Assembly (NCBI RefSeq): GCF_001027925.1
Contig: NZ_LECT01000029.1
Coordinates: 124,001 to 188,000, forward strand
DNA length: 64,000 nt
Origin: Rhodopirellula islandica
GTDB lineage: Bacteria > Planctomycetota > Planctomycetia > Pirellulales > Pirellulaceae
Direction: 5' to 3'
Shown here: positions 6,265 to 51,131 of the stretch, one piece after another
How positions within the stretch are numbered: position 1 is the stretch's first letter
Layout of the letters: every line of letters starts with the position of its first letter
Made by a program: the position numbers and the translations under genes
Notes under the pieces: generated by a model
The model's input: only the letters and a program-made list of their open reading frames with translations
Told to the model about the DNA's origin: nothing
Databases searched by the model: none

Positions 6265-7845
6265 TCAGTCGACTTCCGCATGGTCATACAGCGGCAGGTG
6301 GCGGTAGTAAACTTCCAAGCAATAGATCGACAAACACGTCGTGTACAGGCGACCGGCGTAGCCACCCCAAGCGTCTCCGGTCGGTGACCAGCTTCCGTGT
6401 TCACGACCCCGTTTTTCCTGGCGAGCGGGCAACGTGGCCTTCATCTCCTCATTCCACTGGTTCCACAGCGGTCCTCCATAGTGGTGCAACGCCTGAGTCG
6501 CGTAGTACCAATAGTAAACGTCGGCTTCGTTTGCCTTGACGGGATGGTTTTGCACCAACGTGTCCAAGCTTTGTGCCATCCCCGGCATGGTGCGTGGACG
6601 GCCGAGATACTGATGACACAAAACGCCTTCGGCGGTCATCGCGGGACTGGCGGCGAGGTTCGGCATGTAGGAATAGCCGCCTGTGTACCCTTGGCTAACC
6701 GAATCGAAGTAGCGTTCGATCTTCGGCCAAATGTATGGGTCCACTTCCAGGCCGCCGGCATCACCGCTCTTCAGTCCCATCACGAACCAACCTGTGACCG
6801 ACGTGTCGCTGTCCATCCGAGGTTGATACCGCCAACCGCCTTGGGGTGACTGGGAGGCAACTGCGAAATCGCAGGCCGATTGTGCGTAGGGACGAATCCA
6901 TGAATCACCGGTCATCGCATACAACTCACACAGTGCGATGGTCGCTTGGGCCTGCGAATACATCCGTTCGTGCCCCATTTCCGATCCCGCCAGGAACCCT
7001 TGCCTGTCTTGTTTTGCGACCAGCCAACGTGCTGCTCGGAGCAGTTCTTTTTGATAGGGGCCACCGCGGTGAGTGCTTCCGGCACCCATGAAGGCCAGCA
7101 TTGCCATTGCGGTGGCGCTGGTTTGGTTCTCCCCTCGAGCACCGTTGGCGTACGGCCCGTGCAAGCTCCAACTTCCATTGCGGAGCTGTTGCCGTTTGAG
7201 CCAAACCAAGCCTGCCGAGACCGCATCTTCGGTCGCTTGATCGCCACCATATCTCCTTAGCAATTTCTGTTTCATTGCGCCGCGACGTCCTTCGAACATG
7301 TTCTCTGGCTTGGCCACGGAACTTGTCGAGGAAACTGTCGGATCGAAAAGGTCCGCGTCCAATTTCGGCACCGCCGAGAAGATTTCGTCACTGATCTCGA
7401 TCAGAGCAAATGAATCCAGTGCCTCAATGTCGACCTGGTCCTCTTCGATTGAGGTTTCGAGTGCATCCAGGGGCGCCACCGAGGCGATTGAAAATTCGAC
7501 CAGTTCATCCGCGACGGGATCGTCCGATTGTCGAAACTGCAATTCAATGCGGTCGGTTTGGTGAGCAGAACGGCTGATCAGTGCCAGACCCAGCAGCACG
7601 GCCAGGTGCGCAACCAAGCTGACCAACCAGGAAGGCATTTCATTCAGAGTTTGACGGCTCCAGGTACGAATTCTTGCTGGAATGGACCCGTCGGTGACAT
7701 TCGCCTCACCGGTCTGCGGAGGTTCTGGGTTGGCAGAGGAGTCGGATTTCGGCGGACTCTCACGCCAGCGTTTTCGTGGCTGGGGGTGCTGCTGCGAATC
7801 AACGCGGGAGTGCCGTTTCGGCAGAGCAACGGAAGACAGGATCAT
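6265..7845 (-). CDS. Membrane-anchored prenyltransferase/squalene-oxidase-repeat protein
   Basis: The C-terminal two-thirds (about residues 205-510 of 526) is an alpha/alpha toroid of the squalene-cyclase/prenyltransferase repeat type. QW-like repeats are visible, for example GLVWLKRQQLRNGSWSLHG, AARWLVAKQDRQGFL, GGWRYQPRMDSDTSVTGW and the LPARQEKRG...GSW region near the end. The N-terminus is basic and proline-rich, with one hydrophobic helix (LVSLVAHLAVLLGLALI, about residues 75-92), so the toroid probably faces the periplasm. The canonical DxDD acid of squalene-hopene cyclase is not evident, which argues against true triterpene cyclisation. The open frame continues to a TTG at 7875. I prefer the ATG at 7845. 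Confidence 0.88.
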   Translation of the reverse strand: MILSSVALPKRHSRVDSQQHPQPRKRWRESPPKSDSSANPEPPQTGEANVTDGSIPARIRTWSRQTLNEMPSWLVSLVAHLAVLLGLALISRSAHQTDRIELQFRQSDDPVADELVEFSIASVAPLDALETSIEEDQVDIEALDSFALIEISDEIFSAVPKLDADLFDPTVSSTSSVAKPENMFEGRRGAMKQKLLRRYGGDQATEDAVSAGLVWLKRQQLRNGSWSLHGPYANGARGENQTSATAMAMLAFMGAGSTHRGGPYQKELLRAARWLVAKQDRQGFLAGSEMGHERMYSQAQATIALCELYAMTGDSWIRPYAQSACDFAVASQSPQGGWRYQPRMDSDTSVTGWFVMGLKSGDAGGLEVDPYIWPKIERYFDSVSQGYTGGYSYMPNLAASPAMTAEGVLCHQYLGRPRTMPGMAQSLDTLVQNHPVKANEADVYYWYYATQALHHYGGPLWNQWNEEMKATLPARQEKRGREHGSWSPTGDAWGGYAGRLYTTCLSIYCLEVYYRHLPLYDHAEVD

Positions 7846-45124: not shown

Positions 45125-46282
45125 TTAGATCTTTCGGAACTTGCGTCGGTAGGTGGCCGGTGGATGTCCCATGACGCGTCGGAACGCGACGCTCATGTAT
45201 TCGTGGTTTTGGAAACCTGTTCGGCGAGAGATTTGCACGAGAGTCAGGTCGGTTTCGATCAACAAATAACGCACCCGTTCGATACGCCGCCGCGTGATCT
45301 CTTGGTGAGGGGTGCGTCCCATCAAAGCCAGGAAACGGCTTTCAAACACGCGTCGCGAGAGGGGGACTTTTTTAACGACGTCTTGCACGTTGATGCCGTC
45401 GCAGCAGTGGTCACGAATGAAGCGTACTGCGGCGGCAATCTCAGGGTCTTTGATGGCCAGCACGTCGGTTGATTGCCGAGTCGCCACGCCCAGGGGTTCA
45501 ATCAAATGCGGTTCTGCACCGACCTCCTCGCCCCGCATCATCGCATCCAACAGTCCTGCCGCTTCACGGCCTGTTTGATGGGCCGCAGGGACGACGCTGG
45601 ACAACGGTGGCGTGCACAAGTCGCAGAGCAACTCGTCATTGTCCACGCCCAGCAACGCGAGTTCACTGGGGACTTTGATGCCGTGCAAACGACAGATATC
45701 CAAAATCTTTTGGGCCATGATGTCGTAACACGCCAAGACTCCAATGGGATGTTGGAGCGACAAGACCCACTCCGCCAACCGTTCGCGTTCTCGTTTCAGG
45801 GATCGAGGACGTTGATCGTCCACATCAAAATCAAACGAGAGGCATTCGAACCCGTCTTCTTTGACGCGAGCTTCGAAGGCTTGGCGGCGGAGCACTGACC
45901 AATTGAATCTCGATTCGCCACAAAAAGCGAAGTGCTCAAAGCCGCGTTCGCGAAAATGTTGGTAGGCCAATTCGCCGATGGCAACGTCATTGGTTTCGAC
46001 CCACGGGATGTTGGGGATCCGGCGGGCGGCACTGACATCCACGACCGGGATCTTCAGTTGGCGAATCGAGGAGGCGATTTCTTCATTTTCGATCCGGGCA
46101 ATCACTCCATCCCCCTCCCAGTCATCCAGCCAAGATGGGGGCGCTGCCCCTCGTTCTTGTTCGACCAAGTAGATCGACCAAAGGTCATGCTCGTGGATAT
46201 ACGAGGCGATTCCACCGAGCAGGCCTCGCGCGTAAGCGTTGGACGTTTCGATGAGGAGAGCGACCGCTTTCTGCTTTGGCAT
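45125..46282 (-). CDS. XylR-type AraC-family transcriptional regulator
   Basis: This 385-residue regulator has an N-terminal LacI/ribose-binding-type sugar sensor domain (about 1-270; VALLIETSNAYARGLLGGIASYI, GVDNDELLCDLCTPPLSSV) and a C-terminal AraC DNA-binding domain (about 285-385; INVQDVVKKVPLSRRVFESRFLALMGRTPHQEI, LTLVQISRRTGFQNHEYMSVAFRRVMGHPPATYRR). This architecture matches XylR of Escherichia coli and many planctomycete paralogues. The ATG at 46282 starts the sensor fold, and the open extension to 46375 has no family similarity. No pentose genes are adjacent, so its target cannot be read from context. Confidence 0.93.
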   Translation of the reverse strand: MPKQKAVALLIETSNAYARGLLGGIASYIHEHDLWSIYLVEQERGAAPPSWLDDWEGDGVIARIENEEIASSIRQLKIPVVDVSAARRIPNIPWVETNDVAIGELAYQHFRERGFEHFAFCGESRFNWSVLRRQAFEARVKEDGFECLSFDFDVDDQRPRSLKRERERLAEWVLSLQHPIGVLACYDIMAQKILDICRLHGIKVPSELALLGVDNDELLCDLCTPPLSSVVPAAHQTGREAAGLLDAMMRGEEVGAEPHLIEPLGVATRQSTDVLAIKDPEIAAAVRFIRDHCCDGINVQDVVKKVPLSRRVFESRFLALMGRTPHQEITRRRIERVRYLLIETDLTLVQISRRTGFQNHEYMSVAFRRVMGHPPATYRRKFRKI

Positions 46283-46464
46283 CTTCGTCCAACAAATCAG
46301 GTCTTGCGAGCGAGGCGATTCCTCGCGATCCGATATGGAAAAAGGGCAGCCAGAGACCACCCAATCCACCGCCAATCATAGACGATCGACACAATCGTCC
46401 AGTGTCATAAAAGACATGTTGATTGATCTATTTGACGGGGCTTGGTCGTCGATCTCGAGATTGA

Positions 46465-47550
46465 TCAGTGGACATGGTCAACGGTCGCCGGACGCCCGTA
46501 CAGAAAACCTTGTCCAAGTTCAAATCCAAGTTGGACGCAGGTTTCGTGCTCGGCTTCCGTTTCAACCCCTTCCGCCAGTGTGATGGATCCCGTGTCTTGG
46601 GCAATTCGGATGAGTGATCTCAACAGGTCTTGCCGGCTCGCTGACGCTTGGTCAATGTCTCGGATCAACTGCATGTCGAACTTGAGTATGTCTGGCGGCA
46701 CTTCCACCAACTCCAACAGGCGTCCCTGTCCCGCGCCAAAGTCGTCATAGGAAAGCTGCATGCCGAGATGCGCCAATTGCTCGCGAAGTGAACGCATCTG
46801 TTCGACTTCGGTGACCGCGCCTTCGTGGATTTCAATCACAAATGCGAGGGAAGGGTACCGGTCACGAAGTTCGGCAAGGGACGTGAGCAGACGTTCGGTT
46901 GCGAGTTCATCCGGGTGCGTGTTGAGGAAGATTTTGGAATCGGTTTTATTCGCGGTCATCAACAACCGCGACGCCTCCTCACGCATCATTTCGCTGAGTG
47001 CTGCATTCTGACCCAAACGCTCCGCGATTTCGAACATCGCGGCGGGGCTCTTGAGTTCAGGCAAGTCGCTTCGCGCGAGAACCTCGTAACCTGGGGTGGA
47101 CAACCGATCCATCGTGATGATGGGTTGATAGTGCGGCACCACCGCTCGTTGCGATAGCAAACGCTCGAACGTCAGCAGCGTTTGTGCCCATGGGATCAGG
47201 CCTTCTTCCAGCGTTCCATCTGGTAACTCTTCTTGCTGGCATCCCACACGGAAAACGGCATTGGCGAACTGCAACAAATCACCTTCCACCAACGACGCCT
47301 GTCGCACCGGACGGCCGTTGTGATGGGTCCCATTGGTGCTGCCCAGATCCTCGACGTGCAACCCATCCTCGTCGACCCAGATTTTTGCATGTTGTTTGGA
47401 TACGGATGACACGGCAATGCACACGTCCGCATCGTCGGTGCGTCCGACGGTTGCGATTCGGTTGGGAACCTTGATCGTGCGACGCTGCTGGTTCCCGCTG
47501 CCGTACTCCGTCAGCACCCACTGACTTTGAGGTTGTGAGGGAGTGATCAT
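46465..47550 (-). CDS. FHA-EAL protein, probable c-di-GMP phosphodiesterase
   Basis: This 361-residue cytosolic protein joins an N-terminal FHA phosphothreonine-binding domain (about 25-103; GR at 36-37, SVSKQH at 49-54, DLGSTNGT at 68-75) to an EAL domain (about 120-357). Conserved EAL residues are all visible: E156VLAR (ExLxR), Asn210, EIHE at 240-243, DDFG at 269-272, K290FD, EGVE at 327-330 and QG at 347-348. The domain should therefore hydrolyse c-di-GMP. Its ATG overlaps the stop of the multidomain kinase gene by four bases (ATGA), implying coupled translation. The FHA domain plausibly reads phosphothreonine placed by that kinase (inference). Confidence 0.92.
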   Translation of the reverse strand: MITPSQPQSQWVLTEYGSGNQQRRTIKVPNRIATVGRTDDADVCIAVSSVSKQHAKIWVDEDGLHVEDLGSTNGTHHNGRPVRQASLVEGDLLQFANAVFRVGCQQEELPDGTLEEGLIPWAQTLLTFERLLSQRAVVPHYQPIITMDRLSTPGYEVLARSDLPELKSPAAMFEIAERLGQNAALSEMMREEASRLLMTANKTDSKIFLNTHPDELATERLLTSLAELRDRYPSLAFVIEIHEGAVTEVEQMRSLREQLAHLGMQLSYDDFGAGQGRLLELVEVPPDILKFDMQLIRDIDQASASRQDLLRSLIRIAQDTGSITLAEGVETEAEHETCVQLGFELGQGFLYGRPATVDHVH

Positions 47551-50500
47551 GACAAGCTACCTGCAAGAGGGAAGGCAAGGCGTTTGATTCGAGTTTCTGG
47601 GCTCCCAGGTAGATCCACCGACTCGATTTCGTCGTTCAGTGTGGGCAGGCAACCTGCCAAACTGCGATCCGCATAAATGGGCTCGGTCAGCAAAGTCGCA
47701 TTGCCGGCAAGTTCGGGAAGCATCGTGACGGCGCGTACTGTGCTGCCGAAATAGTCCAGTTGATTGTTTTGAGTCGTCATCAAGGTGGGGCCGCTGTGCA
47801 CGCCGATTCCCAGCCACACCTCTGCGAGTTTCGATTCCATCCACTCAGCCCGAATGCGCTCCGCTGCGATGATTGCGTTCTCGCGAGTCGCAAATGAAGC
47901 CAACGATTTTTCACCGATTGTTTTGACGAGTGTGCCCCCTGACCCTGCAACGCATCGTTCCAAAATCGCATGGTGGCCATGCACTGCCGAATAGGCCTCG
48001 GAGTCTCCCAGCGAAGTGTACAGTTCGTCGATGTTGTTGATGGATGTCGCCAAGAACGTCATCGTTTCGGTGAGGATTGGGTTGTTGCCCGCAAATTGTT
48101 GGTGAGGAAAAAGTTTTCGGAACATTGGATTTGCTGCCGCGGCCGCGGCGGTCACCACATCGCCGCGAGGGATCATGCGTTCGATCCGGATGACTTGAAG
48201 CGTTTCCAAATCGTTGTGCAGTGTCAGCACCTGGCGGCCAGCACGGAGTTTGGGGATGTAGTGGCTGGTTCCTAGACGGGAGAGTTCTCCGTCCCAAGTG
48301 GAAGGAGCCGAGGTCGATTGGACACGAAGGCTCTGCGTGTTCGGAATGCGCGGTCCTCGAAGGAGGTAGTCTCCTGGGGGCAAGTCTATCGGCAACTGCA
48401 AGCATTCACCGGCTTCGATGCGAAGTTGAACGACCACGTGAGGTGAGTGTTCCGGACCACCGATGCAGTACTGTCCCGTGTTGACTTGGCGGATTTCAGG
48501 ATGGGTTTGAAACACCATCTCGATTGCACCGGCCAAGTTCGATTGGAAGTCCATGTCACAGGCTTCGCAGTGCGTGTGGGATTCAATCTCGGCGAGCTGT
48601 TGCGTGTTGTTGGCCGAGACTCGGCAGGTTGGGCAGAGGACGTCCCAGTGGAGGTTCAGGATCCCCGCGTCGGCTGCCAAAAGACAAGCGTCGATCATCT
48701 CGCTGCTTGGGATCTTGAGTCGATCGGCGATCACCAGTGGACGTAGTGAGCCGAGCTCTTGCGGGGACCATTCCCGGACGACTTGTCCCAAGCAATTGGC
48801 AACTTCAGGACGCACGCCCGCTTCCTTCAGCTGGTTCAGTCTCTGGTTCAGGCGGAGCAACTGTGAACGCGTCATCTTCGGTGTGTCGGTGAACGCGTCA
48901 CTGCCTTGCTTGGTTGTCAATTTGCCTCGCAGCGAACGATCCATTCGCCGATAAACCTTGTCGAGATTTCGGAATCCCTTCCAGTCCGCCTCGACGGTCG
49001 TCAGAACACGTCCCAGGAAATTGCGTGGCTCAATTTTGATTTGGTGAGAAAGGCGGGTTCTGCCATTGGGATGTGGTTCGAGGGTGACGACACTCATGAA
49101 CCACTTGAAAGGCCCCGAGTCGAATTCGCGAAGAATGCCCATTCGTTGTCCTTCGATCCATTCGAACGGGTGCTCCTCCCATGAAACCTTGACGCCACTG
49201 AGCGAGAAGGAACCGAACTTTCGCAGTCCGAGTTTGGGGTCCTTCTCGGTTCGGTAGTCGACTGCCGGCAATCCGATGGCTTCATTAAGACGCTCGGTGT
49301 TTGATACGAGCGGCCACAAAGAGGGGGCGTCACTTTCAAGTTGCCAGGACGCGGTCTTCTCCCAAAGCTTCTTTTCAGTGTGGTCAGCGGGTAGACGAGG
49401 GTGAGCTTGCACGTCGGCGGGATCGCCTCGCAGCAATCGCTGGAGGTCCGTCAGCAGTTGGGATGCATCGCCGTAACGCTGAGTCGGGTCCTTTGCCAAT
49501 GCTCGTTGAACAATTCGGTTGGCTGATTCGCTGATCGTCGCGTTGCGTTTCTGAACGGATGGAATCGGATCGAAGCAGTGCATTGCGGCAAGCTTCATGA
49601 ATTCATCGGCTTGATAGGGAACGCTCCCGGTCAGCAGCTCGAACAAGGTGATGCCGATCGAGTAAACGTCGGTGGTGGGATCCAATTCGTCAGACGACTT
49701 GCACTGTTCGGGTGACATGTACTTGGGCGTGCCAAGGACCGAACCCGCCTGAGTCACTTCCATGGATTGGGATTGATGGACGTGTCTCGCAATCCCAAAG
49801 TCCGTCAATTTGAGAGTGAAGTCACTGAATGGGCGTTGTACCAGGGTGACATCGCTTGGTTGCGATGTCACCTCTGGCCTTCGCTTCAGCAGGATGTTCT
49901 CTGGTTTGATGTCACGATGGATGACTTCTTGCGAGTGAGCGTCCACCAAGGCTCGCGACAAATCCGCTGCGATTTGAAGGGCTTCTGATTCAGTCAATCC
50001 GGGCCGCTCCTCGAGCCATGTCTTCAGGTCGATTCCATCGACGAACTCCATCGCAAAGTAGTGCAGGCCGGCGTCCTCACCCACATCGATGAACTGAGTG
50101 ATGTGGTCATTTTGGACGTTGCCGAGCAAACGGGCTTCTTTGCGAAACCGCCGGATCGCATGCGCAACGTCCTTTCCGGCGTTTCGCAGGACTTTGATCG
50201 CGATTGTTTCATTGTTGGAAAGATCAATGGCTCGGTACACCGAACCCATGCCACCTTCGCCAATCAACTCTTGAATTTGAAAGCGTCCCAATTGCTGGGG
50301 AACCTCCGTGACTCGAATGCCGCCAGCAGCATCCTTGGTCCACCGACTGGTGCTGCCTGTTCCGATGGGCATGAATGGGGCTTGGATCACCCCGGTGGTG
50401 TCGACCGACGCATCGTTCTCTACCTCGATTGCGAAGGGGGCAAAGACGGACTTCCATTGGCCGAGCGAAGGCGCAGGTTGGTCGTCCGACTTGTGTAGCC

Positions 50501-51131
50501 ACTGCTTGAGGATGGCTCGTTGTCGACCGCGGAGATACTTGGAAACTTCACCCGGGAGTTCGGTGTCGGAGATATCATCCAGCAACCACGCCAACAAATC
50601 TCGCAGGCCGTTCAGATCACCTTCGATGGAGTGATCTGTGTTTCGATCTTCATCCGTGCAATCGGTCGCAGTGAAATCGATGTGGATGGATGCGTCGGAT
50701 TTTTCGTTGGCAACGGACACCAGAATCGTGGAAGCATGAAATCCACCTTGATACAAACCGACGCGATGGGCCTCGGCGCAAGCGTCCACCAGTTGGGTCG
50801 AGATGCGAAGTCTCGCCAGAAGTCCTAGTTCACTCGCTCGGTTGGAAAGCCGATCCTTGATCGGGTCCAGTCCATCAGGGATGGTGAGCTTGAGTTCCAA
50901 GACGCCGTTGTCAGCGTGCGACGGAATCACCGACCGAATGCACGGGTGATTGACCAGTGGGAACAGGCTGGACTGCAGCGTGATCTGTTGGACGCGTTCG
51001 GGGCTGGCTTGGTTAAGAATGCGCCATTCGAATCCACCATCATCGACGAGGATCTCCCCATCTGCCCCAGCGGAAATCATCCGAAGCGGGGTGGAAGCGA
51101 TCTGGACGTCGAGAGTGGCATCGCTAAGCAT
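47547..51131 (-). CDS. Multidomain Ser/Thr kinase: pseudokinase - kinase - SRPBCC - DUF5939 - nucleotide-cyclase-homology domain
   Basis: This 1194-residue protein has the following layout. Residues 35-232 look like a degenerate kinase lobe (ACAEAHRVGLYQGGFHASTILV in place of HRD). Residues 283-570 are a complete Hanks kinase: GEGGMG 291-296, Lys313, HRDIKPEN 405-412, DFG 444-446 and SPEQ 483-486. About 590-735 is an SRPBCC (polyketide-cyclase-like) domain. About 760-980 resembles DUF5939, with a zinc-ribbon pair (Cys833/Cys836, Cys855/Cys858). About 1022-1160 is a class III cyclase-homology domain (KTIGEK at 1070-1075, GIGVHSGP, LDYFGSTVRA). In the last domain the metal-binding aspartates appear replaced by Ser1030 and Glu1074, so cyclase activity is doubtful. 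No membrane segment is seen. It is followed by FHA-EAL. Confidence 0.93.
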   Translation of the reverse strand: MLSDATLDVQIASTPLRMISAGADGEILVDDGGFEWRILNQASPERVQQITLQSSLFPLVNHPCIRSVIPSHADNGVLELKLTIPDGLDPIKDRLSNRASELGLLARLRISTQLVDACAEAHRVGLYQGGFHASTILVSVANEKSDASIHIDFTATDCTDEDRNTDHSIEGDLNGLRDLLAWLLDDISDTELPGEVSKYLRGRQRAILKQWLHKSDDQPAPSLGQWKSVFAPFAIEVENDASVDTTGVIQAPFMPIGTGSTSRWTKDAAGGIRVTEVPQQLGRFQIQELIGEGGMGSVYRAIDLSNNETIAIKVLRNAGKDVAHAIRRFRKEARLLGNVQNDHITQFIDVGEDAGLHYFAMEFVDGIDLKTWLEERPGLTESEALQIAADLSRALVDAHSQEVIHRDIKPENILLKRRPEVTSQPSDVTLVQRPFSDFTLKLTDFGIARHVHQSQSMEVTQAGSVLGTPKYMSPEQCKSSDELDPTTDVYSIGITLFELLTGSVPYQADEFMKLAAMHCFDPIPSVQKRNATISESANRIVQRALAKDPTQRYGDASQLLTDLQRLLRGDPADVQAHPRLPADHTEKKLWEKTASWQLESDAPSLWPLVSNTERLNEAIGLPAVDYRTEKDPKLGLRKFGSFSLSGVKVSWEEHPFEWIEGQRMGILREFDSGPFKWFMSVVTLEPHPNGRTRLSHQIKIEPRNFLGRVLTTVEADWKGFRNLDKVYRRMDRSLRGKLTTKQGSDAFTDTPKMTRSQLLRLNQRLNQLKEAGVRPEVANCLGQVVREWSPQELGSLRPLVIADRLKIPSSEMIDACLLAADAGILNLHWDVLCPTCRVSANNTQQLAEIESHTHCEACDMDFQSNLAGAIEMVFQTHPEIRQVNTGQYCIGGPEHSPHVVVQLRIEAGECLQLPIDLPPGDYLLRGPRIPNTQSLRVQSTSAPSTWDGELSRLGTSHYIPKLRAGRQVLTLHNDLETLQVIRIERMIPRGDVVTAAAAAANPMFRKLFPHQQFAGNNPILTETMTFLATSINNIDELYTSLGDSEAYSAVHGHHAILERCVAGSGGTLVKTIGEKSLASFATRENAIIAAERIRAEWMESKLAEVWLGIGVHSGPTLMTTQNNQLDYFGSTVRAVTMLPELAGNATLLTEPIYADRSLAGCLPTLNDEIESVDLPGSPETRIKRLAFPLAGSLS

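Follow-up and report, generated by a model that had tools for sequence, protein, structure and literature searches.

Two neighbouring minus-strand genes of the window (the whole stretch of DNA that was analysed, 64,000 nucleotides in length) very probably encode a real and conserved partnership between a protein kinase and an enzyme predicted to degrade c-di-GMP. The first gene (47547..51131, minus strand) codes for a multi-domain Ser/Thr (Hanks-type) kinase of 1194 aa, recognised from its ORF, from Pfam and from its kinase motifs, and the second (46465..47550, minus strand) for a protein of 361 aa that carries an FHA and an EAL domain (hereafter FHA-EAL), recognised from its ORF, from Pfam and from PDB matches to both domains. 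As a previous reading of this DNA (the sequence-only reading) had reported, the two ORFs overlap by four nucleotides, the ATGA at 47547..47550 (minus strand) containing both the stop codon of the first gene and the start codon of the second, and an identical overlap of −4 is found between the kinase and FHA-EAL genes of the nearest relative (L039). In comparison with this relative, dN/dS is 0.08 for the kinase and 0.07 for the FHA-EAL gene, and by this sequence measure purifying selection is acting on both. In a scan for sigma-70 promoters and terminators, none of the former (1.8 expected) and 5 of the latter (5.4 expected) were found, and the operon structure is consequently based on the overlap and its conservation only. 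A putative XylR/AraC-type regulator gene, judged by eye (45125-46375, minus strand), lies downstream of the FHA-EAL gene at a distance of 89 bases and in the same orientation; in L039, a similar-sized ORF also follows the pair.

Conservation of the pair

Conservation of the two genes as neighbours in related genomes had been proposed as a check that could refute the sequence-only reading, and the reading passes it: of 44 distinct homologous kinase loci that were fetched, 21 have the pair, and these 21 come from eleven genera in three families of a single planctomycete order. The 44 loci are the fetched places that remained after removing duplicate sequences and represent a part of all kinase places, while the 21 paired loci comprise 20 identified by script and one, L192, recognised by eye, as the ORF called for its FHA-EAL protein has its start within the kinase gene. 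No FHA-EAL neighbour lies in the fetched stretch at the other 23 loci, of which two (L196 and L202) are cut off by the end of their contig and a third (L077) is 0.7 kb from such an end. L043 (genome G009), counted as unpaired, contains a short FHA remnant (7504-7671) starting about 40 bases after the kinase gene, with no FHA-EAL ORF called after it in the rest of the contig. These 23 loci indicate that the kinase family functions without FHA-EAL.

At the genome level, the C-terminal half of the kinase was detected in 8 of 60 relatives, in 22 of 296 genomes of the order (24 places, 11 of them directly adjoining an FHA-EAL gene) and in 45 of 241 genomes of the family. At least 18 of these 241 family genomes have the pair, including G380, whose FHA-EAL gene is cut by a contig end, and pairs were also found in other families (G059 and G093 in f7, G068 in f16). 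Within a sample of 392 genomes of the phylum, the pair is present in 5, all of the window's family, no adjacent pair was found outside the order, and both genes are present, but apart, in G606 and G773. As only three to eight first-look candidates were scored per genome in these searches, misses are possible. Finally, the pairwise distances of the kinases and of the FHA-EAL proteins (20 pairs) are correlated with an r of 0.91, a value to which shared ancestry of the genomes contributes and which was reached in 0 of 2000 permutations, and the two trees have most clades in common.

The FHA-EAL protein

The FHA domain (residues 34-95; 47266..47451, minus strand; Pfam 1e-15) possesses the conserved residues R37, S51, H54 and N73, so both profile and residues bear out its description as a phosphothreonine reader. 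The EAL domain (residues 129-354; 46489..47166, minus strand; Pfam 8.6e-44) retains all ten residues checked (E156, N210, E240, E243, D269, D270, K290, E327, E330 and Q347), which bind metal or substrate according to the EAL literature. It shares both its fold and these residues with known EAL phosphodiesterases (MucR and other PDB matches), from which the protein differs in its FHA input domain and in having EVL for the EAL signature. The fold and catalytic residues of the claimed phosphodiesterase are thus in place, and the protein probably cleaves c-di-GMP, as predicted from its sequence. All 17 FHA-EAL proteins encoded next to a DUF5939 kinase such as that of the window have the same ten EAL residues, and also seven FHA residues, intact.

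In the window's own genome there are 3 EAL domains, two of which belong to FHA-EAL proteins, so FHA-EAL is a main EAL-type route of c-di-GMP breakdown there (HD-GYP domains being outside this count). The second FHA-EAL gene of this genome has no kinase neighbour. Seven GGDEF domains were also counted, one in an ORF that also matches FHA, along with one ORF with two PilZ domains. An FHA-GGDEF-like ORF of the same genome is located at 5554-6549 of L210 (G000:C28).

Threonine sites in the kinase linker and a proposed mechanism

The kinase begins with a degenerate kinase fold (residues about 13-237; 50421..51095, minus strand), supported by a 13-sequence family profile that matches PknI at 2.7e-9 and by an AlphaFold model (mean pLDDT 79.5) whose Foldseek matches are kinases. 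This domain is followed by a Hanks-type kinase domain (residues 284-560; 49452..50282, minus strand; Pfam Pkinase, 1.1e-51), in which the catalytic motifs GEGGMG, AIK, HRDIKPEN and DFG are all found and which matches StkP/PknB. The linker between them is predicted to be disordered, with residues 238-252 and 254-275 below a pLDDT of 50, and contains a candidate FHA docking site, D-T-T-G-V-I (residues 244-249; 50385..50402, minus strand), in which Thr246, with Ile at +3, would be the phosphosite. A phosphothreonine followed by a hydrophobic residue at +3 is a common ligand of FHA domains. The string D-x-T-G-[VI]-[IV] is present in the linkers of the four paired kinases of the window's genus, and a similar string is situated at the very N-terminus in a distant clade that lacks the degenerate kinase.

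A general pattern that was not tuned to these sequences, T..[IVL], was counted in up to 130 residues N-terminal of the kinase domain, with L192 and the contig-end locus L196 scored as unpaired. It is enriched in the linkers of paired kinases (45 observed versus 23.9 in shuffles, sd 4.6) and not in those of unpaired kinases (31 versus 30.1, sd 4.6), although the sequences are related and the shuffles therefore overstate their independence. Motifs containing TG, all of them devised after inspecting the linkers, follow the same division: TG[VIE][VIFL] is found in 14 of 20 kinases scored as paired versus 2 of 24 scored as unpaired (L043, which has the FHA remnant, and L196), and a strict form, matched 3 times in the 278,981 residues of 818 other ORFs, in 11 of 20 versus 1 of 24. 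Among the newly fetched pairs, the strict form is present only in L195, a close relative of earlier pairs, whereas L190, L191 and L198 carry TGEV, TGVF or the like and L192 has none; altogether, 7 of 21 paired kinases lack any TG form. With its presence limited to these 11 linkers and most newly fetched pairs failing, the strict motif was ruled out as a universal signature.

We propose that the kinase would sense a signal through its SRPBCC, DUF5939/zinc and degenerate cyclase domains (described below), and perhaps through its degenerate kinase, and would then autophosphorylate threonines of the disordered linker that precedes its kinase domain; in the window protein, the site would be Thr246. 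The partner would dock on the phosphothreonine with its FHA domain, and docking would take the EAL domain to the kinase and control, most likely activate, its phosphodiesterase activity. We consider the chances of this docking-and-control mechanism to be about even. The direct relay from phosphorylation to c-di-GMP that had been claimed for the pair obtains indirect support from co-inheritance, from the intact active sites and from the enrichment of threonine sites only in paired kinases; the relay itself, with its autophosphorylation, docking, input signal and sign (that is, the direction of switching), is what we infer from these observations. Since the kinase and the c-di-GMP enzyme are encoded side by side and a candidate phosphosite can be named, the whole relay could be rebuilt in vitro. 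If the mechanism is true, it would provide a function for DUF5939 kinases and a hint at the partners of other planctomycete kinases, including the kinase-tubulin fusions considered below.

A different ligand might be used. In Bdellovibrio, the FHA-GGDEF diguanylate cyclase DgcB is a c-di-GMP enzyme gated by its FHA domain, whose ligand is a phosphothreonine, with Val at +3, in the N-terminal tail of DgcB itself; the tail has been proposed to be phosphorylated, and an upstream kinase was postulated and, in the available part of that report, not identified (PMC6733907). By analogy with what is available on DgcB, the window kinase could phosphorylate the FHA-EAL protein, whose FHA domain would bind that site, and the linker motif would not be the ligand. 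The pairing and the intact residues fit this alternative equally well, but it would not account for threonine sites being enriched in the linkers of paired and not of unpaired kinases, and the tail that precedes the FHA domain is about 33 residues long, its first ten being poorly conserved among five partners. We regard this alternative as unlikely. As far as the available part of the DgcB report (PMC6733907) allows a comparison, DgcB and the window protein are alike in the fusion of FHA to a c-di-GMP enzyme, in a phosphothreonine ligand with a hydrophobic +3 residue (in the window, a candidate from sequence) and in a kinase acting upstream, which is postulated for DgcB and proposed for the window. 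They differ in that DgcB synthesizes c-di-GMP, which the window protein is predicted to destroy, and in that DgcB has its own tail as ligand and no identified kinase, whereas in the window the enzyme gene has a kinase gene as its fixed neighbour.

FHA-EAL genes beside other kinases

The association with kinases extends beyond DUF5939. In 109 distinct FHA-EAL proteins that were collected, a part of the matches listed, the closest kinase gene encodes a kinase-Tubulin_2 fusion in 54 cases, a DUF5939 kinase in 16 plus one fragment, and another kinase in 5, the remaining 33 having no kinase in the fetched stretch. Because the matches to be fetched were selected, with a second group of lower scores among them, the proportion of kinase-tubulin neighbours should not be read as a census. 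When only FHA-EALs fetched through FHA-EAL searches are considered, a kinase gene is adjacent in 34 of 95 cases (33 on the same strand) and within two genes in 57 of 95, or in 15 and 38 of 76, respectively, without the clade of degenerate EAL domains described below. As a control, ORFs of 300-500 aa were called mechanically in 20 arbitrary 20-kb stretches from 20 relatives; among these 104 ORFs, 1 is adjacent to a kinase gene and 2 are within two genes of one, and adjacency by chance was consequently ruled out.

The ten EAL residues are intact in 35 of 35 FHA-EALs from four kinase-tubulin arrangements. By contrast, all 19 FHA-EALs of a fifth kinase-tubulin arrangement keep no more than five of these ten, with the FHA residues intact. 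In the tree, this group and two rows without a kinase neighbour form one well-supported side (21 loci: L067, L068, L109-L123 and L125-L128), and a receiver-GGDEF-CBS gene was found next to or near the FHA-EAL gene in 8 of the 8 loci tested among these 21. From their sequences, these decayed proteins are likely c-di-GMP or protein adaptors. The N-termini of the kinase-tubulin proteins were compared for four arrangements. Where the kinase is encoded two genes downstream, T.[VIL][VIL] is found in 8 of 9 of them, against 1.1 expected by shuffling (L055, L139, L140, L142-L144, L147 and L149 have these FHA-ligand-like sites), and in the three other arrangements no such enrichment was found.

It could be argued from this sister clade that information flows in the opposite direction also in the window, where EAL would serve mainly as an adaptor which depends on c-di-GMP, attaches to the phosphorylated kinase and passes the c-di-GMP signal on to the latter. 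The loss of at least five EAL residues in 19 of 19 cases with an intact FHA, together with the receiver-GGDEF-CBS neighbours, does imply that adaptor use probably exists in the FHA-EAL family. Beside DUF5939 kinases, however, the ten residues are kept without exception, and we think that reverse flow is quite improbable for the window pair.

The two genes could also be merely co-expressed, sharing an operon while the FHA domain reads phosphoproteins of other kinases and no direct relay exists. Such an arrangement would agree with the kinase loci that lack FHA-EAL (23 of 44) and with the 33 of 95 FHA-EALs for which the fetched stretch contains no kinase gene, bearing in mind that, of the 38 of 95 without a kinase within two genes, 10 are less than 3 kb away from where the fetched stretch ends. 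The congruent evolution of the two proteins and the linker enrichment restricted to paired kinases speak against it, and we judge co-expression without a relay to be an improbable explanation.

With docking in the linker as the preferred reading, a broader interpretation may be advanced tentatively, with somewhat less than even confidence. FHA-EAL could be a plug-in output unit of planctomycete Ser/Thr kinases that docks on phosphothreonines in their disordered segments and in this way serves two or more unrelated kinase scaffolds, one with SRPBCC-DUF5939-pseudocyclase and one that is tubulin-like. The resulting direct axis from protein phosphorylation to c-di-GMP would partly replace two-component control, and in one branch, next to a diguanylate cyclase, the decay of EAL would have left an adaptor for c-di-GMP or for proteins.

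The C-terminal half of the kinase

Of the five domains that had been assigned to the kinase, only the active kinase and DUF5939 (residues 764-885; 48477..48842, minus strand; 3.2e-14) are called by Pfam over the cut-off; the degenerate kinase, SRPBCC, cyclase and zinc site have no such call on the window protein. Profile and model support two of these, the degenerate kinase and the cyclase fold. DUF5939 is found in 26 of 26 homologues, and the zinc ribbon proposed inside it is corroborated by four zinc-type cysteines (Cys833, Cys836, Cys855 and Cys858; 48558..48635, minus strand) that are invariant in all 26. The weakest assignment of the kinase is the SRPBCC domain (residues 588-734; 48930..49370, minus strand), which we consider probable: 5 of 26 homologues, the window protein not being among them, match Polyketide_cyc2 with E ≤ 0.01 (2.1e-5 for the best), and the predicted model topology, beta-alpha-alpha-beta(6)-alpha, fits SRPBCC, but a PDB profile search for this domain gave no match.

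The C-terminal region (residues about 1019-1185; 47577..48077, minus strand) has a class III cyclase fold. Although Pfam gives only 0.0042 on the window protein, below the cut-off, the family profile matches class III cyclases at 5.8e-16, and the model of the C-terminal half (pLDDT 86.6) ends in this fold (Foldseek 9.7e-9). Catalysis is another matter, as the window protein has Ser, Glu, Arg and Met where the two metal-binding Asp and the Asn/Arg pair would be expected. All 25 kinase-fused rows, that of the window among them, lack the first metal Asp (Glu replaces it in two), and none of the 25 has the full Asn and Arg pair. The domain is therefore very probably not an active cyclase, and a system that couples cAMP or cGMP to c-di-GMP, which the fold alone might suggest, was ruled out by the missing catalytic residues as extremely improbable. 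Kinase-less relatives of the SRPBCC-DUF5939-cyclase half are found across the phylum (L088 and rows of 600-680 aa). L088, the only kinase-less row inspected, retains both metal Asp and the Asn/Arg pair, a point in favour of the active-cyclase reading; these residues also suggest that cyclase catalysis was lost after fusion to the kinase.

A role as a defence-system kinase (PD-T4-6, MADS) was also ruled out, since the PADLOC matches listed (25 of 35) all fall within residues 275-601 of the kinase protein, that is, its kinase domain; PADLOC gave no match for the FHA-EAL protein.

Relation to known systems

To our knowledge, few links between eukaryote-like kinases and c-di-GMP are known. The model TIGR03903 (TOMM system kinase/cyclase fusion protein), which we take from its name to have a kinase on the N-side of a cyclase-like end, resembles the window kinase in this order, but its match covers only the kinase domain, at 104 bits versus a cut-off of 706. 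A search of the open-licence literature found nothing under FHA-EAL or DUF5939 and, among the papers listed, no title or abstract start describing a kinase and FHA-EAL pair, and the accessible part of a review of c-di-GMP sensing contains no mention of FHA or forkhead (PMC8846402). The sequence-only reading that this is not a described system has to be qualified, as far as the available parts of these papers go, by the FHA-gated DgcB (PMC6733907) and by a remark on Psta_0487 (PMC2875224).

This remark was made by Reviewer 1 of Makarova and Koonin (2010), who noted that the diguanylate phosphodiesterase Psta_0487 is encoded beside an FtsZ-like gene in Pirellula staleyi; in the part of the paper available, the authors dismissed this neighbour as restricted to a single organism or a few relatives (PMC2875224). 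The likeness concerns Psta_0487 as a diguanylate phosphodiesterase, FHA not being part of the comparison. In our survey, FHA-EAL is a recurrent neighbour of kinase-tubulin genes. From what is available on them, the planctomycete kinase-FtsZ-like (Tubulin_2) fusions (PMC2875224, PMC11032199, PMC9871819) are similar to the window kinase in lying by FHA-EAL genes, as in the 54 of 109 cases above, and differ in their C-terminal half, which is tubulin-like instead of SRPBCC-DUF5939-cyclase. At 11 loci (L047, L089-L092, L094, L095, L097, L098, L106 and L108), the FHA-EAL gene directly follows the kinase-tubulin gene on the same strand, and near several such clusters there is a gene of 440-490 aa with weak AAA matches, below the cut-off.
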